A DNA stretch of 64,000 nt from Candidatus Tectimicrobiota bacterium (lineage in GTDB: Bacteria > Tectomicrobia > Entotheonellia > Entotheonellales > Entotheonellaceae), in the NCBI GenBank assembly GCA_026005175.1, contig BPKO01000012.1, forward strand, positions 83,935-147,934. Direction: 5' to 3'. The position numbers and the translations under genes are program-made. How positions within the stretch are numbered: the stretch's first letter is position 1; each line of letters opens with the position of its first letter. The notes under the pieces are model-generated. The model had not been told where the DNA came from. It worked only from the letters and a program-made list of their open reading frames with translations, and searched no databases. Positions 35,487 to 51,971 of this stretch are shown here, piece after piece.

Positions 35487-35506
35487 CGCTGCTAGAAGGC
35501 AAAAGA

Positions 35507-36639
35507 TTACCTGAGGACCAAGGCCTTTGGCGATGCAGGCGGCAGGATATCCGCAGTGGGAGACACCATGAAAGTTCCCCTTACGGTGTTCCACGAATCG
35601 TTGCTTCCTACCCCGGTAAAGACGAGAACAAACTCTTTCCCATCTACACTGAGCCATTTATTGGAGAAATTCCAAAAAAATGTACTCGACTCAATATGAG
35701 GAGAACCAAAATTGTTCATATACGCTACCGTTGTCCATGGCCCCCCATGGTTCGGGAGCGTCAAAGACCCCCATTTTCCCCCTCATACTGGTCTCATGTT
35801 CAGTGATCAAAAAATATCTATTTAGACCTTTATTATAACTTACACTAACGTTCCATCCAACGCCGTTTGGATCCATAAATACTGGAACTCTATTTTTAAT
35901 ATCGTTTGTCCACAATGGATTTCCGCCCCCATCGAATCCGGAAAAAAATTGGTATGCCGATCTATCCATAATCGAATTCTTATGAACACGAATTAATGCT
36001 ATTTCTCCTGGTTTCTGAACCTTCAAAGAGCTGCTATCTTTCAAATGGTTTGCATATATGTAAACAAACTCGTCGCGTGCTCCCTGATATCCCTTACCAA
36101 ACTGCAAAAACGTGGGTAAGATGAGGCCATCGTTTTTGGAAAAGGCCCAACTGGCTCCGCTCCACGAAGCGCCGCCGTCCGTGGAACGATAAAGTCTTGC
36201 TTCTTCATAGTTTTGCGTGTTGGAACCAGGGCTTACCCACATATACAGGGTATTGCCAAGAGCCAGGATGCCGTATGATTTGCCTCCAAACGTCGCCGGG
36301 TAGAGGCTGTTTTTGCCTCCCCAGACGTTGATCCCGACATAGGACGTCGCGTCTCCTTCGACGCGGGCAACGCCAAGTGAGACCCTCCCGTCGGTGTTCG
36401 TTCCGCCAAACCCCCCGCCATCGCCCCAAGAGGTGTACTGATGGTTATCATTTGCCCAAGTAACGGGGCCAGTTGTCACTCCCTAGAGCATGCCGCTCAT
36501 GGGTAGAGAAATCAAAGCTAATTCCTGTAACTACAGGACTTTCTGGGTACGGTAAGATCTGTGCTTCTGCGGTGCAGATTCCGCTTAAAAACCATAATGC
36601 TATAGAAACTGCAGAAAATTTTTTCTTTCGATTCATCAT
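35507..36639 (-). CDS. Secreted DUF4185/sialidase-like beta-propeller protein, two frame breaks, AT-rich
   Basis: The start is ATG 36639 (or 36636), seven bases after GGAG. A signal peptide is clear (KKKFSAVSIALWFLSGICTAEA). The mature protein has SPVVTGISFDFS, WANDNHQYTSWGDGGGF, ARLYRSTDGGASWSG and YNKGLNRYFLITEHET. These repeat blades look like the DUF4185/exo-sialidase-like propeller fold. It is broken at G run 36465-36468 and C run 35741-35746. Removing one base from each restores N-W-P-V-T-W and P-E-P-W-G-P-W-T-T, giving 376 residues. The gene is distinctly AT-rich against its neighbours, which points to recent transfer. The substrate is unknown; binding or cleaving the exported glycan is a guess. 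Confidence 0.7.
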
Positions 36640-36652
36640 TTAAAAACTCCTT

Positions 36653-37552
36653 CTATCTCACAGAATAAATATCCCTTCCCATAAACCATATCCCCGGAAG
36701 CGCCACCAGGAGCTGCATCACGTGGGAGAGGAAAGCCAGCGAAAAGGCCTGTTCAGGGAGGATCCCGATAAGCCCGTACAGTCCGATTGCCGAGGCTTCC
36801 CCTACCCCCCAGCCGTCAGGCGCAATTGGCAAGCGGTAGAGGAGCGTATGGACCGTGGCCACAGAGAGAAACAGCAGCGGATCTGCGACAATGCCGAGCC
36901 CATACGCCATTGCCAAGACGATACAAAGCTGTAGGCCGTGCTCAACCACCGTCAGCATGCCGTTCCACGCCAGGGCTCTGCGGTGTTTGCCGTACTGGAC
37001 ATAGGCCTCAAGGAAACGGCCCGTGCCTTGCGCCAGGCGGGACCGCGATGCCGACAGCCAGCGATGCACGGCAGCGCGGCAGCGCGGGTGCAGCGACAGC
37101 CAGAAGGCCCCGTGCCCGCCTGCCGCCACTGCCAGCAGCCCCCAGGCCCATACGGCGGGAAAAGCAGGGGAGCGGTGAAGAAAGTACGCCATGCCCGCCA
37201 AAGCCCAGCTCACCGCAGAGAGCAGCCCCATTGCCTTCTCGATGGCCAGCGAGGCCACCACCGGGTAGGTGGCGCCTGTTGCACGCACGACCAGATACGC
37301 CCGCAGGGCATCTCCCCCCAGACTGGTGGGCAAAAACGTGCCGGCAAACGTCCCCTGATAGAAGAAGCGGACAAGGGCACTGAACGGCACCTTGAGGCCA
37401 ACGGCCCACAGGAGCACGGCCCACTTCCAGGCCATCAGCAGCCGGTCGAGGGTCATCACAGCGAGGATCAAGGCCAGCCACAGGAGGGAGACGCGCTGTA
37501 GGGTGCGGCCGACGGCGCCAAGGTCGAGCCACAAGGCACAGGCGGCAAACAT
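36653..37552 (-). CDS. AglD/LPG-synthase-TM family membrane protein (flippase-like)
   Basis: The 299-residue protein has about eight membrane helices. The conserved landmarks are FFYQGTFAGTFLPTSLGGDALRAY cut here into FFYQGTFAGTF and PTSLGGDALRAY, then IEKAMGLLSA and LPIAPDGWGVGEASAIGLYG. These match the YbhN/AglD family (lysylphosphatidylglycerol-synthase membrane domain), often linked to lipid-linked sugar transport. The ATG at 37552 begins inside what looks like the first helix (WRWLLAGG lies just upstream in frame). The true start is probably further upstream; an ATG at 37667 would fit if one G were removed near 37590. The start is therefore uncertain, the family call is firm. Confidence 0.75.
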   Translation of the reverse strand: MFAACALWLDLGAVGRTLQRVSLLWLALILAVMTLDRLLMAWKWAVLLWAVGLKVPFSALVRFFYQGTFAGTFLPTSLGGDALRAYLVVRATGATYPVVASLAIEKAMGLLSAVSWALAGMAYFLHRSPAFPAVWAWGLLAVAAGGHGAFWLSLHPRCRAAVHRWLSASRSRLAQGTGRFLEAYVQYGKHRRALAWNGMLTVVEHGLQLCIVLAMAYGLGIVADPLLFLSVATVHTLLYRLPIAPDGWGVGEASAIGLYGLIGILPEQAFSLAFLSHVMQLLVALPGIWFMGRDIYSVR

Positions 37553-37642
37553 GCCTCCGGCCAGCAGCCACCGCCACCCGTGGCGCCGCCACCCTGGCCG
37601 CGCCGATGGCTTTGCCCCGCGCCTCCTGCGCTGCCGCGCCTT

Positions 37643-38275
37643 TTATCCCCGAAGAGGCGATCGACATCCGTCATGCCGGGCGGCGGCCGGGCGCCAAGGG
37701 TGCGGCCGCCGGGGGTAGCGGCCCATCCAGCGCTGCTTCAGCCAGAGCAGGCCGGCAAGCAGCGACCCCAGGACGGCGATTTCGAGGCCGATGGCGCCGA
37801 GATTGACCGGATGCGCCAGGGCCGCAAGCCATGCCCCGGTGGAGGCGGTGGTGGTGGCGGCGTGGTTCACTCCCAAGAAAACGGGCCACGGCGCCAGCAC
37901 ATGGGCGGACATCAAGGGCCATAGCAGGGGAATGCCGTACGGAGGACGGCCGTCGGGACAAAACACATCGATGAGCAAGTGCGACCCGTATGCCAGCAGA
38001 AAGCGTCCCCAGGCCCCTATCCAGGCAGCGTGCCCCCGGTGCAGCAGGAGGGCCACGGCCAGACTCACGCCGCCCGCTACGCCCAGGCTGTGCGAGATGC
38101 CCTGGTGATAGCGCGCCGGCTGTCCTATCAGAAGGCCCGGGAGAAAATCGAAGTCAGGGGCCACGGCCAGCAGCATGCACAGCCACAGCCAGGCACGCCC
38201 TCCCTGCTCGGCCGGCTTGGTGGTCAGCCGGTACACCGCGTAGCCCGCCAGGGCATGCCCGATGGGCGTGGCCAT
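37643..38275 (-). CDS. YdjM-like membrane-bound metal-dependent hydrolase family protein
   Basis: The 210-residue protein begins MATPIGHALAGYAVYRL, then LLAVAPDFDFLPGLLIG, YHQGISHSLGVAGG and YGSHLLIDVFCPDGRPPYG. These H-G-x2-S-H-S and S-H-L-x2-D motifs and four or more helices are typical of the YdjM/DUF457 family. The family is annotated as metal-dependent hydrolase, but its reaction is poorly known. It lies one base after the AsnB-like gene and is read with it. The role in glycan assembly is unclear. Confidence 0.8.
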   Translation of the reverse strand: MATPIGHALAGYAVYRLTTKPAEQGGRAWLWLCMLLAVAPDFDFLPGLLIGQPARYHQGISHSLGVAGGVSLAVALLLHRGHAAWIGAWGRFLLAYGSHLLIDVFCPDGRPPYGIPLLWPLMSAHVLAPWPVFLGVNHAATTTASTGAWLAALAHPVNLGAIGLEIAVLGSLLAGLLWLKQRWMGRYPRRPHPWRPAAARHDGCRSPLRG

Positions 38276-38276
38276 G

Positions 38277-40220
38277 TCACGCCGCCTCCTGCGTGTCCAC
38301 CCCGGCCAGCTCCTCGCTGAGCTGCGCCACCGGCGTTCTCTCGATGAACATCCGGTACCAGACCTCGGCGTTGAGCAGCAGCCACAGGCGGTTGCCGTGG
38401 TCGGCCCGCCGGGAGAGGTGCTCGGTCAAAAGGCGATCCACGACCGCCTGCTGCAGCAGGCCGTCTCGCCCCAGGTGGGCGCTGGCGAGAAAGCGGCGAA
38501 AGAGCACCCGGTACTCCTCGCGCAGCAGGTAGGGCAAGGCGGAGGAAAAGCCCTGCTTGGGCCGCCGCAGCAGGGGGGCGGGCAGGTACTTCTGCGCCAG
38601 GCGCTTTTGCAGGTAGCGCAGCTTCCGCCCGCGCACTTTGAGGTGCACCGGCAGGCGCGCGGCAAATTCCGCCACCTCGTGGTCCATCAAGGGGCTGCGC
38701 GCTTCAAGCCCGTGCGCCATGGTCATGCGGTCCAGAATCATCACCGAGTGATCCGGCAGCCGCACCTGGCTGTCGGCATAGAGCATGCGGTCAAGGGGGG
38801 CTTCGGCCTGCGCCTGCACAAAGGGCTCTCGCAAGGCGGCTTCGGGGTCAAAGTGCGCCAGCACCTCGCGCATCGCCGGCCCGTAGAGCGCTTGGCGCCA
38901 GGCGGGAGGAAAGTAAAAGTAGCTCAGGCTGCGCGCGTAGCGCGCCCCGCCTTGCAGCTCGGCGATGTGGTGCAGCCACTTGAGCCGGTGGGCCAGACTC
39001 TTGTACCAGCGCCCCTCGGGAAGGTGCGCCAGCAGCGGCCCCAGGACCCCGCGGCGCAGCCCCGCAGGCAAGCGCGCGTAGTAATCGGCATACAAGTTTC
39101 CATAGTAGCGATCGTAGCCGCCAAAGAGCTCATCTCCGCCGTCGCCGCCCAGGACGACTTTGACGTGCTCCCGGGCCATCTGGGCGATGAGGTACGTGCA
39201 GAGGGCCAGCGGGTCGGAGGGTTCGTCGAGGTGCCACACCAGGCGCGGCAGAAGGCGCACGAGCGAGGGCGTCACCCGCTTTTCGTGGTGGCGGGTGCCG
39301 TACTGCCGCGCCACCAGCCGCGCATAGGGCGCCTCGTCGTAGGCCTTGTAAGGCAAGCCCATGGAAAACGTCTGCAGGGGCTCCCCTATCCCGTGCTTCA
39401 TTAGCATGGCCACCACCAGGGTGGAATCCAGGCCGCCGCTGAGAAACGCGCCCACCGGCACGTCACTGACCAAGTGCAGCCGCAGGCAGTCGAGCAGGCA
39501 GGCTTCGAGCGCCTCGAGCAGCTCGTCTTCCGTCCCCACCAGCTTGGGCTCGTAGTGCAGGTCCCAGTAGCGCTCGACTTTCACCCCGGCGTCGGGCGTA
39601 AACGTCAGCAGGTGCGCCGGGGGCAGCTTGCGCACGGCGCGAAACATGGTGCGCGGCGGCGCAATGAGCCGCAGGCTCAGGTACTGGTCGAGCGCCTCGC
39701 GGTCGAGCTCGGCCAGGGTGGGGTCGAAGGCGAGCAGAGCCTTGATTTCGGAAGCAAAGAGCAGCTCGCCGCCGCGCTCGACATAAAAGAACGGCTTTTG
39801 CCCCAGGCGGTCGCGCGCCGCCACCAGGCGCCGCTGGCGGCTGTCCCAGAGGGCAAAGGCGAACATGCCGCGCAGGCGCGTGACGCCGTGCGCGCCAAGG
39901 TCTTCGTAGAGGTGCACGAGGACCTCGGTGTCGCTGCGGGTGGCAAAGCGGTGGCCTTTGGCTTCCAGCTCGCGCCGCAGGGCCTGGTAGTTGTAAATCT
40001 CGCCGTTGAAGACCACCCACACTGTGCCGTCTTCGTTGGCCAGGGGCTGGTGGCCGCCCGCGAGGTCGATGATGGCCAGGCGCCGCTGCCCCAGCGCCGC
40101 CTCGGGCGTGCAGTAAAGCCCTTCGTCGTCCGGGCCGCGATGGCGCAGCACCTGCAGCATGCGCCGCACGCGGGCCGCCTCCACGCCCGCCGGGCAAATC
40201 TGACCGGCAATGCCGCACAC
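38277..40220 (-). CDS. AsnB-type glutamine-dependent amidotransferase (asparagine synthase family), copy 2
   Basis: The start is GTG 40220, chosen because it puts Cys directly at position 2 (VCGIAGQI), as the class II amidotransferase mechanism requires; AGG lies upstream. The 647-residue protein has LRHRGPDDEG, VFNGEIYNYQAL, SDTEVLVHLYED, the PPi-synthetase loop FLSGGLDSTLVVAML and LGGDGGDELFGGYDRYYG. It resembles copy 1 at 6,292-8,166 but is clearly divergent, so the two probably amidate different acceptors. It starts five bases after the stop of the carbamoyltransferase gene. Its neighbours suggest decoration of a uronic acid or another carboxyl-bearing sugar. Confidence 0.9.
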   Translation of the reverse strand: MCGIAGQICPAGVEAARVRRMLQVLRHRGPDDEGLYCTPEAALGQRRLAIIDLAGGHQPLANEDGTVWVVFNGEIYNYQALRRELEAKGHRFATRSDTEVLVHLYEDLGAHGVTRLRGMFAFALWDSRQRRLVAARDRLGQKPFFYVERGGELLFASEIKALLAFDPTLAELDREALDQYLSLRLIAPPRTMFRAVRKLPPAHLLTFTPDAGVKVERYWDLHYEPKLVGTEDELLEALEACLLDCLRLHLVSDVPVGAFLSGGLDSTLVVAMLMKHGIGEPLQTFSMGLPYKAYDEAPYARLVARQYGTRHHEKRVTPSLVRLLPRLVWHLDEPSDPLALCTYLIAQMAREHVKVVLGGDGGDELFGGYDRYYGNLYADYYARLPAGLRRGVLGPLLAHLPEGRWYKSLAHRLKWLHHIAELQGGARYARSLSYFYFPPAWRQALYGPAMREVLAHFDPEAALREPFVQAQAEAPLDRMLYADSQVRLPDHSVMILDRMTMAHGLEARSPLMDHEVAEFAARLPVHLKVRGRKLRYLQKRLAQKYLPAPLLRRPKQGFSSALPYLLREEYRVLFRRFLASAHLGRDGLLQQAVVDRLLTEHLSRRADHGNRLWLLLNAEVWYRMFIERTPVAQLSEELAGVDTQEAA

Positions 40221-40225
40221 GGGGC

Positions 40226-41998
40226 TTACCTCGACACCTTGGGCGAGGGGCGCAGGGGCCGCCGCAGGGGGGCGGGGTTGCGCGCCAAGTAGTGGCCGAT
40301 GGCCAGGTAGTCGAGGTGGCCCAGCTGAAAGGCGCGGATGGCGTCGGCCGGGGTGCAGACGATGGGCTCTTCGTGCATGTTGAAGCTGGTGTTGATCACC
40401 GAGGGCAGGCCGGTCAGCCGGTAGTACTCGCGCAGAATGGCGTAAAAGCTGGGGTTGTCTTGCGGGCGCACCAGCTGCGGGCGCGCCGTGCCATCGACGT
40501 GGATCACCCCCGGGCAGTGCGCTCGCATCCAAGGGGTGCAGGCAAAGGTGATGGTCATGAAGCGGGCGGTGTTTTCCGCCCCCTCAAGGTGCAGGTAGCA
40601 ACGGCCGGCCTCTTCGGCCAGCGTCGAGGGGGCAAAGGGCATGAACTCGGTGCGCTGCAGGGCGTGGTTGAGCCAGTCGTTGACGCTGGGATCGGTGGGC
40701 TGGTAGAGGATGGAGCGGTTGCCCAGGGCGCGCGGGCCATACTCCATGCGGCCGTTGAAGCGCGCCACCACGTAGCCCTCGGCCAGCTTGGCCGCGATAA
40801 CGCGCTCAATGTCCGGGTGGTACTCGGCGGCAATACCGGCGCGCGCGAGCTCCTGCCGGATCTCTTCGTCGCTGAATTCCGGCCCCAGGTAGACGTGCTC
40901 CATGCACAGGCGCGGCTTCTCGGGCCGTGTCTCCCCGTGGTCGTAGTAAGCGGCCAGCGCCGCCCCCACCGGCATGCCCTCGTCGGACATGCCCGGATGG
41001 ATGAAGACCTCTTCCACCCCCGGAATCTCGTGCACGCGGCGGTTGACCGCCACGTTGGCAAACAGCCCGCCGGCCAGCGCCACTTTGCTGCGGCCGGAGC
41101 GCTTGAGCCAGTGCTGCACGTACTGCACCACCAGCGCTTCGGTGTGGTGCTGCACGCTGGCCGCCAGGTCGGCGCGGTCGAAATCGGCCGGCAGGCGCCG
41201 CCGCAGCTCGCGCAGCGCGGAGTGGAAAAAGACGTTGCCGATGTTCTTAAATGTGCCGTTTTCGTAGGCGATGAACTGCCGCAAAATGTCGAGGTAGCGC
41301 GGCGTGCCGTGGGCGGCCAGCCCGGTGATCTTGCCTTCGTGGCGGCCGGCCTTGAAGCCGCAGATCTGGGTGATGTAGGAGTAAAACACCCCCAGCGAGT
41401 GGTAGCTGGGCACCGTGTGCAGGAGGCGAAAGCGGCCGTCCTGGACGTCGTAAACGCGCGAGGATACCCCGTCGCCGCCGCCGTCGATGGTGACCACCAA
41501 GGCGGCGTCAAAGCCGCTGGAGTAGTAGGCCGAGGTGGCGTGGCAGTAGTGGTGGTCGATGAAGACCACCGGTGCCTGGATGCCAAACTCGTGGCGCAGG
41601 ATGTGGCGCAGCATGCGCCGGCGGTGGGCGTAGAAGGGCTGACGCACCAAGTAGTAGAGTCGGGGTAGGAAGGGGGCATAGGGCACGGCACGGCTGAGCA
41701 CCGAGGCCACGTCGAAGATGGTCTGCTTGACCCGCCCGCGGTCGAGGCCAAACCAGCCGCCGCGGAAGTCGACGTAGCGGTTGATGAGGTGCTGGTTGAT
41801 CGTGGCGATGGCCACGCGGTCAATGTCCTGCGGCCCCAGGCCGCTTAGCTCCATCACCTTGGCGATCGACAGGCGCGGCACGCCAAAGACCATCTTCTCG
41901 CGCACCAGCCGCTCGTCGGTCACCACGGCGGTAAAGACGCCATCGCGCAGGATGGCCGAGCCACAGCTGACGTGGTCGCCAAGGCCCAGAATGTTCAC
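40226..41998 (-). CDS. NodU/CmcH-type carbamoyltransferase
   Basis: The start is GTG 41998, overlapping the GT4 stop as GTGA and preceded by GGAGGAG; this gives 590 residues. The N-terminal Kae1-like domain opens NILGLGDHVSCGSAILRDG. It continues with FIDHHYCHATSAYYSSGF and VVTIDGGGDGVSSRVY, the metal and nucleotide sites. The C-terminal domain has ARFNGRMEYGPRALGNRSIL and PSVINTSFNMHEEPIVCTP. The family transfers carbamoyl from carbamoyl phosphate to sugar hydroxyls (NodU, TobZ). With carAB in the same operon, carbamoylation of the glycan is a strong inference. Confidence 0.93.
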   Translation of the reverse strand: MNILGLGDHVSCGSAILRDGVFTAVVTDERLVREKMVFGVPRLSIAKVMELSGLGPQDIDRVAIATINQHLINRYVDFRGGWFGLDRGRVKQTIFDVASVLSRAVPYAPFLPRLYYLVRQPFYAHRRRMLRHILRHEFGIQAPVVFIDHHYCHATSAYYSSGFDAALVVTIDGGGDGVSSRVYDVQDGRFRLLHTVPSYHSLGVFYSYITQICGFKAGRHEGKITGLAAHGTPRYLDILRQFIAYENGTFKNIGNVFFHSALRELRRRLPADFDRADLAASVQHHTEALVVQYVQHWLKRSGRSKVALAGGLFANVAVNRRVHEIPGVEEVFIHPGMSDEGMPVGAALAAYYDHGETRPEKPRLCMEHVYLGPEFSDEEIRQELARAGIAAEYHPDIERVIAAKLAEGYVVARFNGRMEYGPRALGNRSILYQPTDPSVNDWLNHALQRTEFMPFAPSTLAEEAGRCYLHLEGAENTARFMTITFACTPWMRAHCPGVIHVDGTARPQLVRPQDNPSFYAILREYYRLTGLPSVINTSFNMHEEPIVCTPADAIRAFQLGHLDYLAIGHYLARNPAPLRRPLRPSPKVSR

Positions 41999-43173
41999 GG
42001 CTCTCCTCCTTCCTTGCCTGGCCCGCGCGACGCGGCCAGCGCCCGGTACAGGGCACTGTACTTCTGCGCGCAGCGCTCGATGTAAAATTCCTCGACATAA
42101 GCCCGGTTGAACTGCCCCATCTCGCGGCGCAACGGGGCGTGATCGCACAGCTCTTGCAAGCGGTGGGCAAAGAGGGCGCGGTCGCCCAGGCGCACCAGGA
42201 AGCCCGTTTTGCCGTCGATCAGAAAGTCCACGTGCCCTCCGTGGTCGTAGCTGACAATGGGCAGGCCGCAGGCCATGGCTTCAAGGAACATGAGGCCAAA
42301 GCCCTCGTGCTGGGTGGTCGACACGTAAATGTCGGCCACGCTGAGGACCTGGAACTTCACCTCGTCGCTGACGCTCCCCAGAAACGCCACGCGGTCGCCC
42401 AGACCCTGCTGTGCTGCCTGCTGCTGCAGCCGCGACTTTTCGGGCCCGTCGCCGATGATCAGCAGCTTGAAAGCCACGCCGTGCAGCCGCGCCACGACGT
42501 CCAGAAGCTCGTGCGTGGCCTTGCGCGGCACCAGCCGCCCTACGGTCACCAGCAGGAGCTCCTGGGCCCGGTAGCCCAGGGCTTCCCGGCAGGTGCGGGA
42601 ATAGACGGGGCGCCGGATGCCGTGCGGGATCTTCACGATGTCGCGGGTGATGCCGTAGCGGCTCTGGGCATGGGCGATGATGTCTGTCGACATGCCCACC
42701 ACGGCGTCGGAAGCCCGCAGCAAATGGCGCACCAGAGCCCGCAGCAGCGCGTGGCGGTGAGGAGAAAGGCGCTTGCTGGGGTCGTAAATGTCGCCCCCTA
42801 GAATCGACAGCAGGTGCGGCACGCCGAAGTGCCGCGCCAAAAGGAACCCCGAGGGGGCAGAAGGCACGGCAAACAGCGAGTGGACCACGTCGACGCGCTG
42901 CCGGCGCAGCAGGCGCCAGCCATACCCCAGGCTGCTGGGGAAAAACGACAGCATGGAGCGCAGCGAAGCCACCTGCGGGTCGTGCCGTCCCCACACCGGA
43001 ACGCGTACGATCTCCACCCCCCCACACACCTCGCGCGCCGGCAGCCCGTCGTAGCGCGACGTGAGCAGGGTGATGGCGTGCTCCTGGCTCAGGGCTTCGG
43101 CCAGATCCCGGTTGAGCACGCCGCCGCCGCCGCCCAGGGGAGGATACTCGTAGTTGAGCATGAGAATGCGCAT
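41995..43173 (-). CDS. GT4 glycosyltransferase
   Basis: The start is ATG 43173, giving 392 residues beginning MRILMLNYEYPPLGGGGGVL, a glycine-rich acceptor loop. Also visible are DVVHSLFAVPSAPSGFLLA, LLSILGGDIYDPSKR, IPHGIRRPVYS, LLVTVGRLVPRKATHELLD, LLIIGDGPEKSRLQ, DIYVSTTQHEGFGLMFLEAM and PIVSYDHGGHVDFL. The donor motif E-G-F-G-L-M-F-L-E is standard GT4. The stop overlaps the carbamoyltransferase start. Confidence 0.92.
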   Translation of the reverse strand: MRILMLNYEYPPLGGGGGVLNRDLAEALSQEHAITLLTSRYDGLPAREVCGGVEIVRVPVWGRHDPQVASLRSMLSFFPSSLGYGWRLLRRQRVDVVHSLFAVPSAPSGFLLARHFGVPHLLSILGGDIYDPSKRLSPHRHALLRALVRHLLRASDAVVGMSTDIIAHAQSRYGITRDIVKIPHGIRRPVYSRTCREALGYRAQELLLVTVGRLVPRKATHELLDVVARLHGVAFKLLIIGDGPEKSRLQQQAAQQGLGDRVAFLGSVSDEVKFQVLSVADIYVSTTQHEGFGLMFLEAMACGLPIVSYDHGGHVDFLIDGKTGFLVRLGDRALFAHRLQELCDHAPLRREMGQFNRAYVEEFYIERCAQKYSALYRALAASRGPGKEGGEP

Positions 43174-43190
43174 CGCAGGCTCCTGGCGTG

Positions 43191-44180
43191 TTAAAGCTCG
43201 CCGCGCTCCCGGTACCACTGGGCGGTTTGTTGCATGCCGGCTTTGACGTCCCACTGGGGGAAGAAGCCCAGCACCTCGTTGGCTTTTTGCAGCGAGAACA
43301 CAAAGCTCTTTTTGAAGAAGTCAAGGCGCCGCCGGTGGATCACGGGCTTGATGCCCACGCGTCCCATCACGCTTTCCCCTAGCCAGGCCATGGCGTTGCC
43401 CACCCACAGGGGCAGGTGCCAGCGCGGCACCGGCTTGCCCAGGACGTCGGCGATGCACTGCACCATCTGCCGTGTGGTCAGCCATTCTTTACCGGCCAGC
43501 ACAAAGACCTCGCCGCAGGCTGGCGCCACTTCGGCGGCCCGCCGCAGGCCGGCGAGCAAGTCGTCGATGTAAATCGGGTGGTGCAGGTTGTCGCCTTTGC
43601 CAAAAAAGCAGAACACCCCCTTGTCGATGGCTTTAAACAGCTTGAGCAGGCGGCGATCCCCGGGACCGTAGGTTTCGGCGATGCGGATGACGACCACCGG
43701 CAGCCGGTCGCAGTAGCTCAGGACCAGCCGCTCGCCTTCCAGCTTGGTTACCCCGTAGACGTTGTCCGGCTGCAGCGGGGAGGTCTCGTCTAGGGCGCCC
43801 TGCCGCGCGCTGCCGTAAACGCCAATGGTGCTGCCGTGAACCAGGCGCCCCACCCCGGCCCGCAGGCTCGCCTCCAGCACCGTGCGGGTGCCTTCGACGT
43901 TGACTTGCCAAAAGTGCGCCTGCGGGGCGTGGGCCTCGTGCTGGGCTGCCGCCAGGTGATAGACGCACGCCGCCCCGCGCACCGCTTCGGCAACGCGCGC
44001 CGCATCGGTCACCGAGCCGCAGAGCACGCGCGCCCCTTGCGCCTCGAGCAGGCGGCGGTTGGCGGCTTCCGCAGGGGTGTTTTCTTGCCCCAAGACGGTG
44101 ACTTCCTGGCCCGCGGCCAGGCAGCGCAGCGCCAGGCGCGAGCCAATAAATCCGGTACCGCCGGTGATCGTCACCCGCAT
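43191..44180 (-). CDS. NAD-dependent sugar epimerase/dehydratase (extended SDR)
   Basis: The 329-residue protein begins MRVTITGGTGFIGSRLALR with the Rossmann G-x-x-G-x-x-G. It has YHLAAAQHEAHAP, VHGSTIGVYG, the catalytic Y-G-V-T-K, and IRIAETYGPGDRRLLK. It belongs to the extended SDR family, which epimerises, reduces or dehydrates nucleotide sugars. Which one cannot be decided. It is followed by a GT4 gene and preceded by a methyltransferase gene. A reductase/epimerase acting on a deoxysugar nucleotide is a reasonable guess. Confidence 0.88.
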   Translation of the reverse strand: MRVTITGGTGFIGSRLALRCLAAGQEVTVLGQENTPAEAANRRLLEAQGARVLCGSVTDAARVAEAVRGAACVYHLAAAQHEAHAPQAHFWQVNVEGTRTVLEASLRAGVGRLVHGSTIGVYGSARQGALDETSPLQPDNVYGVTKLEGERLVLSYCDRLPVVVIRIAETYGPGDRRLLKLFKAIDKGVFCFFGKGDNLHHPIYIDDLLAGLRRAAEVAPACGEVFVLAGKEWLTTRQMVQCIADVLGKPVPRWHLPLWVGNAMAWLGESVMGRVGIKPVIHRRRLDFFKKSFVFSLQKANEVLGFFPQWDVKAGMQQTAQWYRERGEL

Positions 44181-44199
44181 GGCGTTCTCCTTGCGCCGC

Positions 44200-44925
44200 T
44201 TACTTCTGGCAGATGGCGGCGATTTTCTTGGTAAACAGCCGGTTGGACTTGCCGTAGAGCCGGAAGCTGAAGCGGAAAAAGGCGGTGTAGAGCCAGGAAA
44301 GAACGAGCAGCACGTAGTTCAAGGGATTGGTGTAAAACACATAAAGATTGAGCGGGATGACGCGGATGTGGCGAAAGCCGCTGTACTCGAGCACCTGGCG
44401 CAGCGAGTACTCGGTGAAGGTGTTGTAGTGGTCAAAATTCTGCGCCAGCGCTTCGGCGCCGGTGATGGGGTTGGCGCCGTTGAGCACGTGCACGATGAGC
44501 GTGCCCCCTTCTTTGAGGCTGTCGCGGCAGAGGGCCAGGAAGGCCAGGATCTCGTCTTTGGTGAGGTGGTTGAGCTCTTGCTCGCAGAAAATGAGATCGT
44601 ACGCCTGCGGGTGTGCGGCCAGGAAGTCAAAAGCGCGCGCCACCTGGCAGGGCAGCCCCCGGCGCTGGGCGTAAGCGACTTTGTCGGCACAGGAATCAAT
44701 GCCCAGCACCTGCCGGTAGCCGTGGCGCTGCAGGGTGTGCACGAAGTAGCCCGGGCCGCAGCTCACGGCCAGGATGCGGGCATCGCGATCGGCCGGCACG
44801 TACTTGAGGTAGTTGTGGCGGTAAAAGGCGTAAAAAGTCGTGTAGCCCCTTTCGAGGTCTGCCGGGGCTTCCCAGAAGGAATCAAAGGGCTCGATTTTGG
44901 CGGTGAGCCGGGTCTCGACGGCCAT
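44200..44925 (-). CDS. SAM-dependent methyltransferase
   Basis: The protein has 241 residues and a class I Rossmann fold: ILAVSCGPGYFVHTLQRHG (motif I), VLGIDSCADKVAYAQ (motif II), YDLIFCEQELNHLTKDEI and LKEGGTLIVHVLNG. The C-terminal part is hydrophobic (VLLVLSWLYTAFFRF), which suggests a membrane-bound acceptor. The sugar or lipid acceptor is unknown. The gene begins 13 bases after the stop of the FAD-oxidoreductase gene and is part of the operon. Confidence 0.85.
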   Translation of the reverse strand: MAVETRLTAKIEPFDSFWEAPADLERGYTTFYAFYRHNYLKYVPADRDARILAVSCGPGYFVHTLQRHGYRQVLGIDSCADKVAYAQRRGLPCQVARAFDFLAAHPQAYDLIFCEQELNHLTKDEILAFLALCRDSLKEGGTLIVHVLNGANPITGAEALAQNFDHYNTFTEYSLRQVLEYSGFRHIRVIPLNLYVFYTNPLNYVLLVLSWLYTAFFRFSFRLYGKSNRLFTKKIAAICQK

Positions 44926-44938
44926 AGGCGTTCCTTCT

Positions 44939-46660
44939 TTAAAAACTGACCACCACCTGCTCCGAAGCGGGGGTGCGCCGGCGCAGCGCCTCGCGCACCT
45001 CGTCGAGTTCCTGCTGCTGCCGCTGCGGGCTCCACCCCAGCTCGCGCGCCATAAGGGCGGCGCAGGCCTGCAGGGCGGCTTCCTGGGGCCAGGCGCCGGT
45101 ACCCAAGTCGGTGCGGCGAAAGACCACGTCGCTCAGCTTGCAGGCCATCTCCTCGCGCACCGCGTGGATGACCTCGGCGCGCAGGACCGTGGCGCCGGGC
45201 AGGGGTTCGGCCCACGTGGGGTCTTCCTGGCAGTAGCGCAGCACACCCTCGTATGCCGTGCCGTAGTTGCGCAGCAGGGCCTGACGCGCCGCCGGCGGCA
45301 CCGAGGCGGGAAAGCGCGACCAGGCCTGGGCCTGGAAGGCGGCCACATCGGCGATGTCGCCGCCATAAAGAGGGGTGGTGGCGGTGGGTGCCGGCCCCAG
45401 GCGCCGGCCTAGCTGCTCGCCCACCAGGGCGATGGCTTTTTGCGCCATGTGCCGCGCCACGGTGGCGCGCACGCCGATGAGGGTGAGCAGGCCGGCAAGG
45501 CCGTGGGTATGGCGGTGGTCGATGAGGCGCGAGCGCTTGCCGTAGCGCAGATCCGTTGCCCCTGGGGGATTGTCGCCAAAGAGCACCAGTCCCGCCTGCC
45601 ACAGGGCGACGTCGTCCAGGGTGAGAGAAAGTCCAGGACAGCCCTGCCGCACCTCGGCGATAAAGTCTTCGAGTTCTGCGTCACTCACCGTAAAGGCGTC
45701 GGGGGCCCCGCGGTGCACCACGTGCCAGACGCCCACCAAGGTGTAGTCCCGCCAGGGCACCAGGAAGAGGTGGCGCTGCTTGCGGCTGAGCACCGCGTCG
45801 GGGTCGCGGGTGCGTCCCGGCACGGCCAGGGCGCAGTCGCCGGCCAGCAGCCGCCGCCCCACCACGAAGCAGGCATCGCGGGAAAACGTCGGGGGCGGCT
45901 GCAAGGGCAGCCCCAGCCACTGCTGCAGCAGCGCAGGGGCCCAGGGGCCGGTGGCGTTGAGCACCACCCGGGCGCGGAGGGCAAAGGTGTCGCCGCTGAG
46001 CACGTCGCGTACCTGCACGCCGCAGACGCGCCGGCCCTCGCAGAGTAGGCCGGTGGCTTCCAGGTAGTTGCCAAGCTGCGCGCCGCGGGCTGCCGCTGCC
46101 CGCAAAAAGGCCAGCACCAGGCGCGGTGGGTTGTACATCTGGCCGTCGTACACCACCACGGCACCGGTCAGCCCGCGGGCTTCCAGCTGCGGAAAGCGCC
46201 GCAAGCATTCCTGCCGCGACAGCACGTGGCCCCAGGGTACCCGCCGCAGCGGGTCGCGCAGGCCGCGGTTGCGCCCCCAGGCCAGGCCGTTGTACAGGGT
46301 AAGCCCGGCCAGCAGCGCCGCTTTGCCTTGCAGCCCGTGTCCGTAGGTGGGAATGGCAATGGGCAAAGGGTGTACCAGATGGGGAGCGATGCGCAGCAGG
46401 ACGTTACGCTCGCGGCTCGATTCGCGCAGGCGCGGCAGGTCGAGGTGCTGCAAGTAACGGATGCCGCCGTGCACGATTTTAAAGTGGTTAGCAGAAGTGG
46501 CCTGGCAGAAATCGCCGCGCTCCACCAGGGCCACCGACAGCCCGCGCAGGGCCGCGTCCCAGGCGGCACAGGCGCCAAAGATGCCCCCCCCGACGACCAC
46601 CACGTCAAAGGGGTGGGCAGCCAGCGTGTGCAGGTCGCGCTGCAGGGCGCTGGCAGGCAT
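44939..46660 (-). CDS. FAD-dependent glycerol-3-phosphate dehydrogenase family protein (GlpD/GlpA-like)
   Basis: The ATG 46660 shares its A with the stop of the kinase gene (TGATG); a GTG at 46663 is also possible. The 573-residue protein has the FAD-binding start FDVVVVGGGIFGACAAWDAA, then FKIVHGGIRYLQHLD, NATGPWAPALLQQW, RKQRHLFLVPWRDYTLVGVW and TLIGVRATVARHMAQKA. A C-terminal helical domain like that of GlpA/GlpD follows. GlpD oxidises glycerol-3-phosphate at the membrane. Inside a polysaccharide operon it may feed a glycerol-linked decoration or balance G3P, which is speculative. This enzyme is unusual for such a locus. Confidence 0.86.
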   Translation of the reverse strand: MPASALQRDLHTLAAHPFDVVVVGGGIFGACAAWDAALRGLSVALVERGDFCQATSANHFKIVHGGIRYLQHLDLPRLRESSRERNVLLRIAPHLVHPLPIAIPTYGHGLQGKAALLAGLTLYNGLAWGRNRGLRDPLRRVPWGHVLSRQECLRRFPQLEARGLTGAVVVYDGQMYNPPRLVLAFLRAAAARGAQLGNYLEATGLLCEGRRVCGVQVRDVLSGDTFALRARVVLNATGPWAPALLQQWLGLPLQPPPTFSRDACFVVGRRLLAGDCALAVPGRTRDPDAVLSRKQRHLFLVPWRDYTLVGVWHVVHRGAPDAFTVSDAELEDFIAEVRQGCPGLSLTLDDVALWQAGLVLFGDNPPGATDLRYGKRSRLIDHRHTHGLAGLLTLIGVRATVARHMAQKAIALVGEQLGRRLGPAPTATTPLYGGDIADVAAFQAQAWSRFPASVPPAARQALLRNYGTAYEGVLRYCQEDPTWAEPLPGATVLRAEVIHAVREEMACKLSDVVFRRTDLGTGAWPQEAALQACAALMARELGWSPQRQQQELDEVREALRRRTPASEQVVVSF

Positions 46661-48925
46661 CACGCCGCCTCGTAGCTGTAGCGGTAGTAGGGCAGCAGCA
46701 CTGGCTGGCGCACGTCGTTGAGGACAAAGCCCGCGAGCTTGCCTGCCGCCAGCGTCTGCACGGCATCGCTCACCGCCGCCCGCGGCGTTTTTTCCGCCCG
46801 CACCACCAGCACGACCCCGTCGACCACTTCTTCAAAGATGGCCATGTCGGAAAGGGGCAGCACGGGGGCGGCGTCGATGAGGATGTAGTCGTACTGGGTG
46901 CGCAGCACTGCCAGCAAGTCCCGCATTTGCTGCGAGTTGAGCAGGCCCGAGGAGTTGCGCACCCGGCGCACCGCCGGCAGCACGGCGAGGTTGTCGTCGG
47001 CAAACGGGATAACGATGTCGGCAAAGGGCACCAGGCTCGAGCGTGCCGCGGGCTGGTTTACCAAGAGGTCCACCAGCCCTGCCTGCAGCTCGGTTTTGAG
47101 GTAGCGCGTGAGCACCGGCCGCTTGAAGTCACCCTCAAGGAGCAGGGTCTTCTGGCCAAAGTCCCTGGCCATGACCACCGCCAGGTTGAGGGCGGTGACG
47201 GTTTTGCCTTCGCCTTGCACGGCACTGGAGATGGCAAACACCTGGTGGCCTTTGTCGCGCTTCAAGTCTTCGAGGCGGGCGTAGAGCAGGCGGTACTGCT
47301 CGGTGATGAGGCCCTCGGGGTCGTCTACTGCCACCAGGCGGTAGCCCTTGCGCATGCACCGGGCGCGGGGAATGGCAGCCAACACGGGCGCCTCGGCCAC
47401 GCGCTGCAAGTCGCCGGGCTTGCGCAGCCGGGGCCGGAGCTGCTCGAGCACGATGATGAACGCCGCCCCCAGGCCGCCGCTGAGCAGGCTGCCCAGCAAG
47501 CACGATGCGGGGCCGATCCGGCCAGTAGGGGCGGGTGGGCAGGTTGGCCGGGTCGAGGATGCGAAACTGCTCGCCTTTTTGGCGCTTTTCCAGGCTCTCG
47601 GCCAGCTTGGCGTTGAGCCGCTTGGCCAGCAGCGTCTCGTAGTTCTTCTGAGAAATGGCGTAGTTGCGCGTAAGCGTCAGCAGCTTCAGCTCGTTGTCGG
47701 GGGTTTCCTCGACGCGCCGCTCGTACTCGCGGATGAGCGCCTGCACCTGCTGGCGCCGCGCGGTAAGGGCGGCAATGTCAGAGCGCAGGGCGTGCAGTTG
47801 CAATTCGAGCTGCTGCGCGCCGCGTGGAGAACTCGCCGCTGGCGCTGGCTCGCCGCCAGAAGGGGCTTCCGGCACCGTGCCTCGCTGCGCTTCCAGCTCG
47901 GCGATGCGGCGCTTGAGAATGAGGATATCGGGGTAGTTGTCGTTGAACTGCGCTTGCAGCAGCGCCAGCTGTCCTCTGAGCTGTTGCAGCTCGCGCTCCA
48001 GCGGCACCGCCGGCGCTTCTGGGGCCGAGGCCTGTGGGGTCTCGGCCTGCTGCAGCTCGGCCAGCTGCCGCTCTAGCAAGAGGGCTTGCTCCTCGGCGGT
48101 TCGCAGGGCCTCGTTGAGGCTCTGGAGTTCCTGTTGCAGCCGGTCAAGGGTACGCAGGTTGGCATCGAGCTGCTCGGGCAAGGCGCCCCGGTGCCGCTCT
48201 TTGAACTCCTTGAGGGCCTGCTCCTGGCGCTGCAAGTCGCGTGCTGCCTCGCGCAGCTGGCTTTCCAGAAATTCGGCGGTGCCTTCGGCCTGGCGCTCCC
48301 GCACCTTGAGGTTCTCTTCGATAAACAAAGAGGCCAGGGCGTTGGTCACCTGCATCACCGTCTGCGGATTCTCGCCGCGGAAGGAGATGGTAAAGGCGTT
48401 GTGGCCGCTGCGCCGGCCGCCGAGGACCTCGACCTCGATGCTGCTGCGCATGCGCGCGATGACTTCTTCTGGAATGTGCCCGCGCTCGGGCACCACCGTG
48501 GGCGGCTCCCGGTAGAGGCCCAACGACTGGAGCAAGCGCTTCGCTTTGGTACGCACGCGCCCCATCAGCCCGCGCGACACCGGCTGCGCCTGGGGCTCGC
48601 GGTAGAGGCCGAACTCCCGGATGATCTTCTCCAGGTTGGTGCGGCTCATCACCTGCTGCCGGATGGTGGCCAGGCGCTCTTCGACCGACGAGGTGACCAG
48701 CGAGCTGACGTAGGACGGCGGCACTTCTTGCGGCTCAACGAGGATGAGGGTGGAAGAGCGGTAAAGCGGCGGCAAGGTGTAGCTGTACACGACGGCGATG
48801 ACCGTCCCCAGCAGCAGGGGGACGACGAGCCACCACTTGCGGCGCCAGAAGATCTCCAGGTAGTCCTGGATGCCAAAAGTGCTTTGCTGCAGCGGGAGGG
48901 CGAGGGCTTTGCCGTTGGGGTTCAT
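46660..48925 (-). CDS. Wzc/ExoP-type polysaccharide copolymerase fused to BY-kinase, one frame break
   Basis: The start is ATG 48925. The N-terminal Wzz domain has WWLVVPLLLGTVIAVVYSY, a long coiled-coil (residues about 200-420, rich in Q, E, L and R) with DNYPDILILKRRIAELEAQ, and a second membrane helix. The C-terminal kinase has AVQGEGKTVTALNL (Walker A), LLLEGDFKRP (Walker A') and YILIDAAPVLPLSD (Walker B). It ends in a Tyr-rich tail (PYYRYSYEAA) for autophosphorylation. The frame breaks at the AA pair 47498-47499; removing one base gives RIVLLGSLLSGGLGA and 754 residues. It controls chain length and export with Wza. Confidence 0.88.
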
Positions 48926-48946: not shown

Positions 48947-49561
48947 TTACTGGACAATAAGGGTGTCGCCCGGCATGAGCACGATGTTGTCTTGCACCCC
49001 GGCCACCACGTCGCGGTAGCGCAGGATCATCGCCGCTTCTTGGTCCTTGGCGATGCGGCGGCGCAGCACGATGTGGTTCGTGGAAGCAAACTCTGTAAAC
49101 CCGCCCGCCAGGGCCACTGCCTGCAAGAAGGTGGTACCGGTTTTCACCACGTGCTTGCCGGGGTTGCGCACCTCGCCGATGACGTAAATGGCGTAGCTGT
49201 TGACTTGCTGCAAGACAACAGAGACCTGCGGCGGCTCTTTGTAATAGGCCTTGAGCAGCTCGGTAATTTCCTGGGCCAGCTGCGGCGCCGTCTTTCCCGC
49301 CGCCGCCACGTCCCCGATAAGGGGCAGAGAGATCTTGCCGTCAGGGCGCACGGTGACCACCCGCGACAAGTCGGGGTTCTTCCACACCGTGACTTCGACC
49401 ACGTCTTCAGGCCCAATGCGGTACTCTTCGGACACCACCGCCGTCTGCTCCGGCAGCGGCGGCAGCTGCACATGCGGCTGTCCACAGGCCGCCAGCAGCC
49501 CCAGCACCGCGGCGCAAACGGCCACTATCCCGTACCTTCCCTTCGTGCCCACGTTCCACAT
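48947..49561 (-). CDS. Polysaccharide export outer-membrane lipoprotein (Wza-like)
   Basis: The 204-residue protein starts at ATG 49561 and has a lipoprotein signal peptide with the lipobox LLAAC near residue 26. It continues with EYRIGPEDVVEVTVW and VTVRPDGKISLPLIGDVAA (poly_export domain), then IYVIGEVRNPGKHVV and FLQAVALAGGFTEFA (SLBB-type domain). It is shorter than E. coli Wza, with one SLBB domain, like EpsA-type proteins. It should form the outer-membrane channel that works with the Wzc-type protein encoded 21 bases further on. Confidence 0.93.
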   Translation of the reverse strand: MWNVGTKGRYGIVAVCAAVLGLLAACGQPHVQLPPLPEQTAVVSEEYRIGPEDVVEVTVWKNPDLSRVVTVRPDGKISLPLIGDVAAAGKTAPQLAQEITELLKAYYKEPPQVSVVLQQVNSYAIYVIGEVRNPGKHVVKTGTTFLQAVALAGGFTEFASTNHIVLRRRIAKDQEAAMILRYRDVVAGVQDNIVLMPGDTLIVQ

Positions 49562-49573: not shown

Positions 49574-51073
49574 CTACGAGCTCAGCCGCTGGTCGAGCGA
49601 CGGCGCCACCTGCATGCCAGCCCACGCCGCTTCGTCGCCGGTGGCGGCGGGTAGCGGCGGGCGTGCCGGCGGCGTCGGCACTGCCACCCGGGCAAAGAGC
49701 ACTTTGTGGATGGTGCTGAGCAGCACCAGCAAATCGAGGAAGAACGACATGTTCTTGATGTAGTAGAGGTCGTACTGCAGCTTCTCTACCGCGTCTTCCA
49801 GGGTGGCGCCGTAGCCGTAGCGCACCTGGGCCCAGCCGGTGATGCCCGGCTTGACGGTGAGGCGCTGTGCGTAGTAGGGGATTTTTTCTTGCAGCTCGGC
49901 GACGAAGTGAGGGCGCTCGGGCCGCGGCCCCACAAAGCTCATGTCGCCTTTGAGCACGTTGAAAAGCTGGGGCAGCTCGTCCATGCCGGTGCGCCGCAGC
50001 AGGCGCCCCAGCCGCGTGACGCGCGGATCGTGCTGCTGCGCCCACACCGGTCCGGTCTCTTTCTCGGCGTCGACCACCATGGTGCGGAACTTGTAAAGGG
50101 TGAAGATTTTGCCGTTTTCCCCCACCCGCTCCTGGCGGAAAAACACCGGCCCTGCCGAGTCGAGCTTGGTGAGCAGCGCGATGAGGCCGATGAGAGGCAA
50201 GGAGACGGTCAGTCCGAAAGTCGCCAGAGTAACGTCGGTGAGGCGCTTCAGGGTGCGGGTCAGCTTGGTGCGGGTAAAGCCGTCGGCAAAAATGAGCCAG
50301 CTGGGGCGCAAGGCGTGTACCAGGATCTTGCCGGTGAGCTTTTCGTAAAACGAAGGCCAATCCTCAACGCGTACGCCTTGCAGCTTGCACTGCAGGATCT
50401 GCTTGGTGGGAAACGCCCCTCGCCGCTCGGTCAGCGCCACCACCAGCACGTCGGGCTTGCGCTCGCGCACGAGGCGCTCGAGCTCGTCGATCCGACCCAA
50501 TACCCGAACCCCGGGAAGGAGGTGGCGCGGCGCCTGCGGCGTCACCACCCCCAGCACCTCAACGCCGGGATGGGTTTCATGGTGCAGCTCGGCCAGCAGC
50601 CGCTGCGCCACCTCGCTGTCGCCGACAATCAGCACTTTTTCTCGCAGCTGCCGCGTGTTGATCAGCCAGTAGTAAAGCAGCCGGAAGCCCACCACCGCCG
50701 GCAACGAAACGGCCAGGGAGACCAGGTAAGCGGTGCGGCTCAGGCGCAGCGGGGGTACCAGAAAGCTCAGCGCTGCCACCACGCCGGCAATGACTGCGAA
50801 GCAGGCCACCAGGGTAAGCAGCAACTCGCGCTTGCGCCGGTACAGGCGGAGGTCATAGAGATTGGCCACGTAGAAGGTGAGCCAGGAAACAAGCGTCAAC
50901 AGCAGGGCCTTGGGGTAGATGGGTTCAAACCCGAGCCAAAGCTCGGGGCCTCCCAGATAGCCCAGCGCTGCCCCGGCGTAAACAGAGGCAAACAGGATGG
51001 CGCCCTCGGCCACCACCAATACTAGCAATTTCCAGGGAATGTAATGCTTGCAGATGCGCACCGTGTTCCCCAC
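49574..51073 (-). CDS. Undecaprenyl-phosphate sugar phosphotransferase (WcaJ/EpsB-like initiating enzyme)
   Basis: The start is GTG 51073, directly after the NusG-like stop; this gives 499 residues. Four or five N-terminal helices are followed by a nucleotide-binding-like domain (EKVLIVGDSEVAQRLL). The C-terminal bacterial sugar transferase domain follows: KRLTDVTLATFGLTVSLPLI, GPVFFRQERVGENGKIF, LYKFRTMVVDAEK, DELPQLFNVLKGDMSFVGPR and KPGITGWAQVRY. It should attach the first sugar phosphate to undecaprenyl phosphate. It resembles the group described with PEP-CTERM/exosortase exopolysaccharide systems. The 14 C-terminal residues are unremarkable. Confidence 0.93.
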   Translation of the reverse strand: MGNTVRICKHYIPWKLLVLVVAEGAILFASVYAGAALGYLGGPELWLGFEPIYPKALLLTLVSWLTFYVANLYDLRLYRRKRELLLTLVACFAVIAGVVAALSFLVPPLRLSRTAYLVSLAVSLPAVVGFRLLYYWLINTRQLREKVLIVGDSEVAQRLLAELHHETHPGVEVLGVVTPQAPRHLLPGVRVLGRIDELERLVRERKPDVLVVALTERRGAFPTKQILQCKLQGVRVEDWPSFYEKLTGKILVHALRPSWLIFADGFTRTKLTRTLKRLTDVTLATFGLTVSLPLIGLIALLTKLDSAGPVFFRQERVGENGKIFTLYKFRTMVVDAEKETGPVWAQQHDPRVTRLGRLLRRTGMDELPQLFNVLKGDMSFVGPRPERPHFVAELQEKIPYYAQRLTVKPGITGWAQVRYGYGATLEDAVEKLQYDLYYIKNMSFFLDLLVLLSTIHKVLFARVAVPTPPARPPLPAATGDEAAWAGMQVAPSLDQRLSS

Positions 51074-51667
51074 TCAAGCCGCCACCACCAGGGTGCAGTC
51101 GACTTCCACCGCCACGCTGCGCTGCAGCAAGTCGACGGAGATGACCACCAACCCCTTGTCTGGCTTATCCTGCACGAAAATGCCCTCGACCTCGGCCAGG
51201 GGGCCGCCGGTAATGCGCACCCGCTGTCCGGCGCGCAAGTACGGGAAATGCCGCGCCGGCAAGTGGGCGTGCATCACCCGCCGCAGGGTGTCGATTTCTT
51301 CCTCGGAGACCACTGCCAGGCGATCCCAGCGCTCGCCGAGCACGCGCACCAGCCCCCGCGCCTTGACCACCTCGATGTAGCTCAGCTTGTCCATGGCGTG
51401 GTGCAAAAAGAGGTAGCCGGGAAGCATGGGCACCCAGATGCGGTGGCGCTTGCCGCCGCGGCGCGACCAGACCTCGATCTTGGGCAAAAAGAGGCGAAAC
51501 CCTTTGGCGGCCAGCTGGTCGTGTACCAGCTGCTCGCAGTGGCTGCGCGTATAGAGCGCATACCAGTGCGCTTCCGTTGCCATCCCCTCGGGTTCGCCGG
51601 GTTGCTTGCCGTCTGTTGCCAAGGCTCCGCCCCCTTCGGTTGCCCCTTCTTGGGTGGCAACCGACAC
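51074..51667 (-). CDS. NusG paralog (RfaH/UpxY-type transcription antiterminator)
   Basis: The protein has 197 residues from GTG 51667, or 169 from ATG 51583; neither has a strong ribosome-binding site, and the family sequence begins near HWYALYTRSHCEQ. The NGN domain covers WYALYTRSHCEQLVHDQL, PKIEVWSRRGGKR and PMLPGYLFLHHAM. The C-terminal KOW domain has AGQRVRITGGPLAEVEGIF. NusG paralogs of this kind head long surface-polysaccharide operons and suppress early termination. It is the first gene of a co-directional run of about 51 kb. Two perfect hairpins lie in its leader (51,692-51,712 and 51,777-51,795), where RfaH-like factors usually load. Confidence 0.9.
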   Translation of the reverse strand: MSVATQEGATEGGGALATDGKQPGEPEGMATEAHWYALYTRSHCEQLVHDQLAAKGFRLFLPKIEVWSRRGGKRHRIWVPMLPGYLFLHHAMDKLSYIEVVKARGLVRVLGERWDRLAVVSEEEIDTLRRVMHAHLPARHFPYLRAGQRVRITGGPLAEVEGIFVQDKPDKGLVVISVDLLQRSVAVEVDCTLVVAA

Positions 51668-51691
51668 GCACCATAGACCCTGACTCGCCGG

Positions 51692-51712
51692 CGGTGCAGG
51701 CTCACTGCACCG
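51692..51712 (-). promoter_or_regulatory. Perfect hairpin in the leader of the polysaccharide operon
   Basis: The two arms CGGTGCAG and CTGCACCG are perfectly complementary (8 bp) with a 5-base loop. The hairpin lies 24 bases before the GTG start of the NusG-like gene. Its position and shape suit a pause or loading element (ops-like) or a translation switch, but the sequence does not match the E. coli ops consensus. The function is inferred from place only. Confidence 0.5.
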
Positions 51713-51776: not shown

Positions 51777-51795
51777 GCTTACTTTATCGGTAAGC
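51777..51795 (-). promoter_or_regulatory. Second perfect inverted repeat in the operon leader
   Basis: The arms GCTTAC and GTAAGC (6 bp) enclose a 7-base AT-rich loop. The repeat lies about 110 bases upstream of the NusG-like start, between that gene and the SRP RNA gene. It may be an operator overlapping the operon promoter or another RNA hairpin. No convincing -35/-10 pair was found nearby. Confidence 0.35.
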
Positions 51796-51877
51796 CCCAC
51801 GGAGAACTTTACGGCGGCCAGATTGCGTGCTTCCCTTCCGCTGCGGTCCCGCTTGCTGCCAGGAAAAAAAAGCAAGG

Positions 51878-51971
51878 GGTGTGCCAGCCTGGCGGGCCGG
51901 AGCAAAGTCCTGGCAACACAGGCCCTTAGGGAAGCAGGCCAAGGTGGCGGGCGGTCTCAACCCTGCACACC
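51878..51971 (+). ncRNA. ffs: Bacterial signal recognition particle RNA (4.5S type)
   Basis: The core matches the universal SRP domain IV: CAGGCCC, a TTAG tetraloop, then GGAAGCAG and CCAAGG. It lines up base for base with the E. coli 4.5S core, with TTAG in place of the GGAA tetraloop. The ends close in a perfect 7-bp stem: GGTGTGC at 51878-51884 with GCACACC at 51965-51971. The size of about 94 bases is the short Gram-negative form without an Alu domain. It is encoded opposite to the polysaccharide operon, in the gap between the NusG-like and NUDIX genes. A terminator-like hairpin and T-run follow. The exact ends may be a few bases wider. Confidence 0.82.

Follow-up and report, generated by a model that had tools for sequence, protein, structure and literature searches.

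A conserved leader hairpin and 18-nt element accompany a UpxY-like NusG paralog at the head of exopolysaccharide operons in soil bacteria of several phyla

The leader of the nusG and exopolysaccharide operon in our window (the whole 64,000-nucleotide stretch of DNA analysed here) carries a hairpin followed by the sequence RAAGGGGGCGAAGCC, and both the position and the sequence of this module are kept across several phyla. The module co-occurs with one clade of NusG paralogs only. It is a previously undescribed signal that accompanies its NusG paralog in soil bacteria of several phyla, and the element itself was found in uncultured soil and groundwater bacteria. A search of the open-access literature for the element sequence gave no match. 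Comparison of the sequences leads us to think it likely that the hairpin and RAAGGGGGCGAAGCC together are a cis-acting recruitment signal for the clade-specific, UpxY-like paralog. The features discussed below are collected in Table 1.

Table 1. Features of the leader and of the operon behind it, with window coordinates.
Feature	Position	Strand	Basis
Conserved leader hairpin TCGGTTGCC-loop-GGCAACCGA, adjoining the element	51636..51664	minus	Folding, position, compensatory changes
Conserved 18-nt element ACCGAAGGGGGCGGAGCC	51623..51640	minus	Alignments, covariance model R1 match, genome-wide specificity
8-bp hairpin of the initial annotation, dG -14.0	51692..51712	minus	Not conserved
6-bp hairpin of the initial annotation, dG -6.5	51777..51795	minus	Not conserved
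Sigma-54 type -24/-12 promoter TGGCACACCCCTTGCT	51871..51886	minus	Perfect TGGCACN5TTGCW match
UpxY-like NusG paralog, NGN + KOW	51074..51622	minus	PF02357, NF033644; AlphaFold2 model
Likely TTG start codon of the NusG paralog	51620..51622	minus	Directly behind the 18-nt element
Polyprenyl glycosylphosphotransferase, XrtA/PEP-CTERM-type (EpsB_2)	49574..51073	minus	TIGR03013, 472 bits, cut-off 393
Polysaccharide export protein (Wza/EpsY-like)	48947..49561	minus	TIGR03027, PF02563
Chain length determinant, XrtA type; ORF overlaps the kinase ORF	47135..48925	minus	TIGR03007, PF02706
XrtA-associated tyrosine autokinase	46660..47499	minus	TIGR01007 over cut-off, TIGR03018
Remaining co-directional exopolysaccharide gene train	376..46663	minus	Family matches, gene spacing

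The paralog lies in a NusG-type open reading frame at 51074-51667 on the minus strand. Its start codon is likely the TTG at 51622, giving a protein of 182 aa, or else the ATG at 51583, giving 169 aa. The initial annotation had drawn this reading frame correctly but had placed its start at 51667, upstream of both. It had also called the gene a specialised NusG/RfaH/UpxY-type factor, and we agree, as the protein scored 108.8 bits against the NCBIfam model for the UpxY family antiterminator (NF033644), above the curated cut-off of 100. The paralog did not reach the cut-offs of the RfaH equivalog models (78.0 vs. 144.5 bits for TIGR01955, 52.3 vs. 124 for PRK09014), of the LoaP family (NF033641, 74.1 vs. 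125 bits) or of the NCBIfam model for NusG itself. AlphaFold2 predicted an NGN domain and a beta-barrel KOW domain with a mean pLDDT of 92.7. The nearest solved folds to this model are NusG, the NusG-RNA complex 8f5g (among the best two-domain matches) and RfaH, and no single NusG subfamily ranked clearly above the others in the fold searches. The same genome encodes a second UpxY-like paralog (41% identity; L001, G000:C2:7025-7495) that lacks the element. A family member (G001) likewise encodes such a second UpxY-like paralog with no element (L007). A NusG above the nusG equivalog cut-off was not found in this genome, which is a MAG that is 77% complete.

Behind the paralog come 43 further minus-strand genes that reach down to position 376, in good agreement with the earlier count of about 42 co-directional genes with almost no gaps and the NusG paralog first. 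Most of these genes overlap or are separated by a few bases, and just four gaps exceed 30 nt: 33 nt, 173 nt (36480-36652), 90 nt (37553-37642) and 256 nt (1522-1777). The gene train is an exopolysaccharide locus of the XrtA/PEP-CTERM type, roughly 50 kb long. The second gene, following the paralog, encodes EpsB_2, and no UpxZ family was among the families found in the neighbours. The long remainder of the train consists mostly of glycosyltransferases, amidotransferases, a flippase and an O-ligase. We infer processive antitermination across the whole 51 kb. An XrtA/PEP-CTERM-type amidotransferase of the asparagine synthase family occurs twice in the locus (6292-8166 and 38277-40532, both minus). 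The carA and carB genes are found mid-train, inside the exopolysaccharide genes (31204-35657, minus); with the 173-nt gap upstream, one gene (DUF4185) before carA, carAB could be a separate transcription unit.

The initial annotation had proposed that two other hairpins in this leader, an 8-bp and a 6-bp stem, form a new loading or pausing element that does not match ops. Both hairpins exist as described. However, neither has a counterpart in homologous leaders: folding z-scores over 36 distinct leaders of relatives revealed no conserved structure comparable to them at matching distance, which rules them out as the element. The 8-bp hairpin is not special: the window contains 25 perfect inverted repeats of 8 bp with a loop of 3-8 nt, against 8-15 in shuffles. 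What the comparison of homologous operons did uncover is a different hairpin and an adjoining element (51664-51623), which start 28 nt downstream of the nearer of the two and had been missed, as had the sigma-54 site at 51886-51871. Thus the idea of a new leader element before the NusG paralog gains comparative evidence, while the hairpins named for it do not. The contention that the leader signal is unlike the known ops also holds. Searching the window for ops (GGCGGTAGCGTG) with two mismatches gave nine matches where 15 are expected, which is the chance level, and none of them lies in the leader.

A scan of named genomes by paralog alignment yielded ten close relatives (64-72% identity) from MAGs labelled Nitrospirae, Rokubacteria, Deltaproteobacteria, Acidobacteria and Terrabacteria ANGP1, and an order-level search around one Rokubacteria MAG added about thirty more homologs. 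The string GAACCGAAGGGGGCGAAGCC is common to their otherwise diverged leaders, some 50-110 nt before the NGN domain. Among close homologs with 56-72% identity, about 36 distinct leaders had the same layout of hairpin and element; their MAGs are filed under Rokubacteria, Nitrospirae, Deltaproteobacteria and ANGP1. The 18-nt element is almost invariant among these leaders, and a GGC-NNN-GCC mini-stem stands at its end. Directly 5' of it stands the hairpin, which in the window has 9 bp (dG -17.9, z -4.9). Its stem sequence varies by species: the window has CGGTTGCC/GGCAACCG, and other species have GGTCTC/GAGACC, GGTTCG/CGAACC or CGCTTCT/AGAAGCG.

We scanned the folding of 36 distinct leaders in sliding segments of 36 nt. 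The mean z-score was -3.06 for the segment ending with the RAA of the element, where 75% of leaders fell below -2. At 12 of the 13 other offsets it was between -0.45 and +0.60, and at the farthest (n = 15) it was -0.62. Pairing-preserving double changes filled 53 cells of the alignment fitted with the covariance model, against 26.2 +/- 5.2 after shuffling and above every single shuffle, and the covariation score was 0.202 against 0.118 for shuffles, although this alignment is biased towards the structure it was fitted to. Slid structures scored 0.05-0.10, about half of the true value or less. An unfitted alignment went in the same direction (35 vs. 19.7 +/- 4.2 double-change cells), with a slide by -1 coming near the true structure on the covariation score. 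A test for contiguous stems against mononucleotide shuffles was uninformative because the stems carry bulges, and we replaced it with these z-scores and covariation counts. RNAalifold run on the MAFFT alignment showed the mini-stem only, since MAFFT shifts the 5' arm. The covariation of the stem speaks for RNA structure playing a part, and the 18-mer, which is nearly invariant, is compatible with recognition as RNA or as DNA.

Covariance model R1 matches the window copy at 51675-51617 with 41.8 bits. Across 52 genomes, the covariance model gave 45 matches, which covered 28 of the 31 genomes with the paralog clade and none of the 21 without it (Fisher p = 1e-11). In two of the three unmatched paralog genomes, a contig end truncates nusG or its leader (L214, and L069, where the contig starts within the element). 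The element is absent from the homolog L209 and from a mid-operon homolog, L232. A pattern search for the element returned 44 matches against 1 for the control. Since the 52 genomes had partly been picked via the paralog, we added a blind scan of 438 genomes (395 from one phylum, 43 from a second) with the bare pattern ACCRAAGGGGGCNNAGCC. It gave five matches, two of them known and three new, and no match to the reversed pattern. All three new matches directly precede previously unseen members of the NusG clade (52, 58 and 67% identity), so the element can be used to locate the gene for the factor. The 18-mer is nearly unique in each genome and does not occur in genomes that lack the paralog. 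Among more distant homologs, the covariance model found nothing convincing in 76 loci, and distant UpxY-like homologs (36-46% identity) lack the element. The element-bearing NusG clade was monophyletic (40/40, support 0.84) in a tree that included distant homologs.

Several other matches were judged to be chance or artefact: a 33-bit match at G133:C70 that is antisense to a coding frame, one at G118:C181:409 that is an inverted repeat in a short contig, and those at L174, L185, L310 and L311. In the 4-kb contig of L276, the element recurs unchanged in the opposite orientation about 900 nt away, probably through an assembly inversion. A Syntrophaceae subgroup of UpxY-like loci (L122, L125, L103, L112, L133, L119, L123 and L083) has short leaders of about 80 nt in which another strong hairpin immediately precedes the start; it may be a recruitment signal of its own. 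The sequence CACCATTGAAAAA, common to Syntrophaceae leaders, is promoter-like and distinct from the 18-nt element.

The next same-strand gene upstream encodes a Nudix protein and ends at 52051, 384 nt from the paralog's reading frame. Between the two is the only perfect match to TGGCAC-N5-TTGCW in the window. Such sigma-54 sites number 27 genome-wide, against 1 for the reversed pattern. One of them lies before a protein whose PEP-CTERM motif passes the Pfam cut-off (L056), and another (L060) precedes a protein with a weak PEP-CTERM match. A sigma-54 promoter upstream of nusG was not seen in the leaders of relatives, and a sigma-54 DNA-binding domain was not found in the 77% complete genome.

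The element is closely coupled to the start of nusG. An in-frame start codon stands behind it in 40 of 41 nusG leaders, either a TTG at 0 nt (28 leaders, with a 1-nt spacing in one case) or an ATG at 6 nt (12 leaders). This spacing makes it very likely that the element is also a Shine-Dalgarno region, with AAGGGGG probably serving nusG in that role, and it means that selection on translation initiation contributes to the conservation of the element. An ops-like pause signature, with a pyrimidine at -1 and G at +1, is present where TTG follows and is lost in the ATG class.

The same coupling is what one would expect if the hairpin and Shine-Dalgarno were simply an mRNA operator for nusG translation, with no loading onto polymerase. 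That the covarying hairpin points to RNA, and that AAGGGGG can act as a Shine-Dalgarno, also agree with translational autoregulation of this kind. However, some copies of the element are decoupled from the nusG start. At L278 and L279, the element is 56-86 nt before a response-regulator gene, and nusG follows 650-700 nt further on. A second copy at L065 has no start codon for 126 nt. At L275, the element is 38 nt before a Wzc-type kinase and export gene (Wzc-Wza), with no nusG in cis. Up to three copies (L273, L275 and L277) head operons other than that of nusG, and copies at the heads of other operons are not what translational control by itself would lead one to expect. The copy at L277 precedes a chain length determinant. 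The one at L273 (G099:C19) precedes an operon for a luciferase-like monooxygenase, an acyl-CoA ligase, a carrier protein and KASIII, possibly a metabolite cluster under control of the paralog in trans. The 18-mers at L273 and L275 are exact, but the hairpin is absent or weak at both (L275 scores only 26.6 bits with the covariance model), which makes these trans targets weaker than the nusG leaders. Given the decoupled copies, we regard a purely translational operator, bound by the NusG paralog or by another RNA-binding protein, as unlikely.

Riboswitch-like elements and attenuators are common before exopolysaccharide operons, and the mini-loop of the window copy contains a GGA. The module might be a factor-independent attenuator or a site for another regulator (an Rsm/Csr-type protein or a small ligand, for example) and accompany nusG only incidentally. 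We find this improbable. An Rfam search of the leader at strict and loose thresholds gave no match to a riboswitch or RNA family, the GGA is not conserved (most other leaders have GAA), no U-run follows the hairpin, and the link with one NusG clade is strict. The least probable account is that of an extended Shine-Dalgarno or initiation signal with a stabilising 5' hairpin, kept only for good nusG expression: its location beside the start codon fits, but the conservation far exceeds the 6-9 nt of a Shine-Dalgarno, an 18-mer that is nearly unique per genome and missing without the paralog is unlike a general initiation signal, and this specificity and the decoupled copies rule out a plain Shine-Dalgarno as the whole story.

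If the module recruits the paralog, as we prefer to read it, events in the leader might run as follows. The nascent hairpin would fold behind the polymerase, which would pause. At the pause, the hairpin would be at the RNA exit, while bubble and hybrid would contain the G-rich element. A hairpin at the RNA exit with the downstream sequence in the hybrid is the usual geometry of hairpin-stabilised pauses. The paralog could then recognise the element in the nontemplate DNA, in the RNA, or in both, and would stay on the polymerase in place of housekeeping NusG, carrying it through the long operon. It may also act in trans at other operons where the element occurs. Since the element provides the paralog's Shine-Dalgarno as well, the factor and the first ribosome would load at the same site, and the operon would be subject to autoregulation. 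The element suggests that antitermination and the start of translation could be set at a single place, and it provides an entry point for expressing the very long exopolysaccharide and metabolite clusters of these lineages.

In the literature that we compared (PMC7819879, PMC12691694, PMC7593976), a defined recruitment signal is given for RfaH (ops DNA) and LoaP (the dfn RNA hairpin) only. RfaH is recruited at ops, where the paused polymerase exposes a small hairpin in the nontemplate DNA (PMC7819879). The JUMPstart stem-loop has also been described (PMC2864571), and E. coli JUMPstart/ops is Rfam family RF01707. As in JUMPstart/ops, the signal is placed in the leader where polysaccharide operons begin and would act with a NusG paralog, and in both a small hairpin adjoins a G-rich element (CUCUGGU...GCCAGGG next to GGCGGTAGCGTG in E. 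coli). In register, GGCGGAGCCTTG of the window matches ops at 8 of 12 positions, a mildly unusual resemblance (P about 0.07 given GGC). However, the Rfam JUMPstart model found no match in the window leader, and R1 found none in E. coli JUMPstart. With the layout shared but no cross-match by Rfam JUMPstart, ops or R1, the module probably works like JUMPstart/ops, with common descent unsupported. Here, unlike JUMPstart/ops, the element coincides with the nusG start site and the paralog is encoded within the operon; the paralog is also far below the RfaH cut-off. Exosortase loci paired with RfaH were not found in the open-access literature.

LoaP binds a leader RNA hairpin that is required for antitermination in the dfn/mln leader (PMC12691694). 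Our system resembles it in having a NusG paralog, a leader RNA hairpin and long operons. However, the LoaP hairpin has a UNCG loop, whereas TNCG occurs in just 4 of 37 hairpins here, and strict conservation is found in the flanking 18-mer rather than in the loop. The module may represent a third, composite class of recruitment signal, in which a LoaP-like RNA hairpin and a strictly conserved G-rich element, perhaps read as nontemplate DNA as ops is by RfaH, are joined to the paralog's own ribosome-binding site, but we offer this class tentatively. We are similarly cautious about its corollary, namely that a single module of 50 nt serves to load the antiterminator together with the first ribosome and also labels targets in trans, among them perhaps a secondary-metabolite operon.

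UpxY of Bacteroides capsule operons is similar to our paralog in that the UpxY family model is over its cut-off and the gene is the first of its own polysaccharide operon. It differs in that its relatives found in this analysis lie outside Bacteroidota and in that the families found here include no UpxZ-like second gene; UpxZ is likewise missing for two UpxY of B. fragilis (PMC7593976). UpxY is reported to keep transcription from terminating prematurely in its leader, with no defined sequence element given (PMC7819879, PMC7593976). That literature does not explain how factors of the UpxY type locate their operons, and the element reported here provides a short, testable candidate sequence for a UpxY-like factor.
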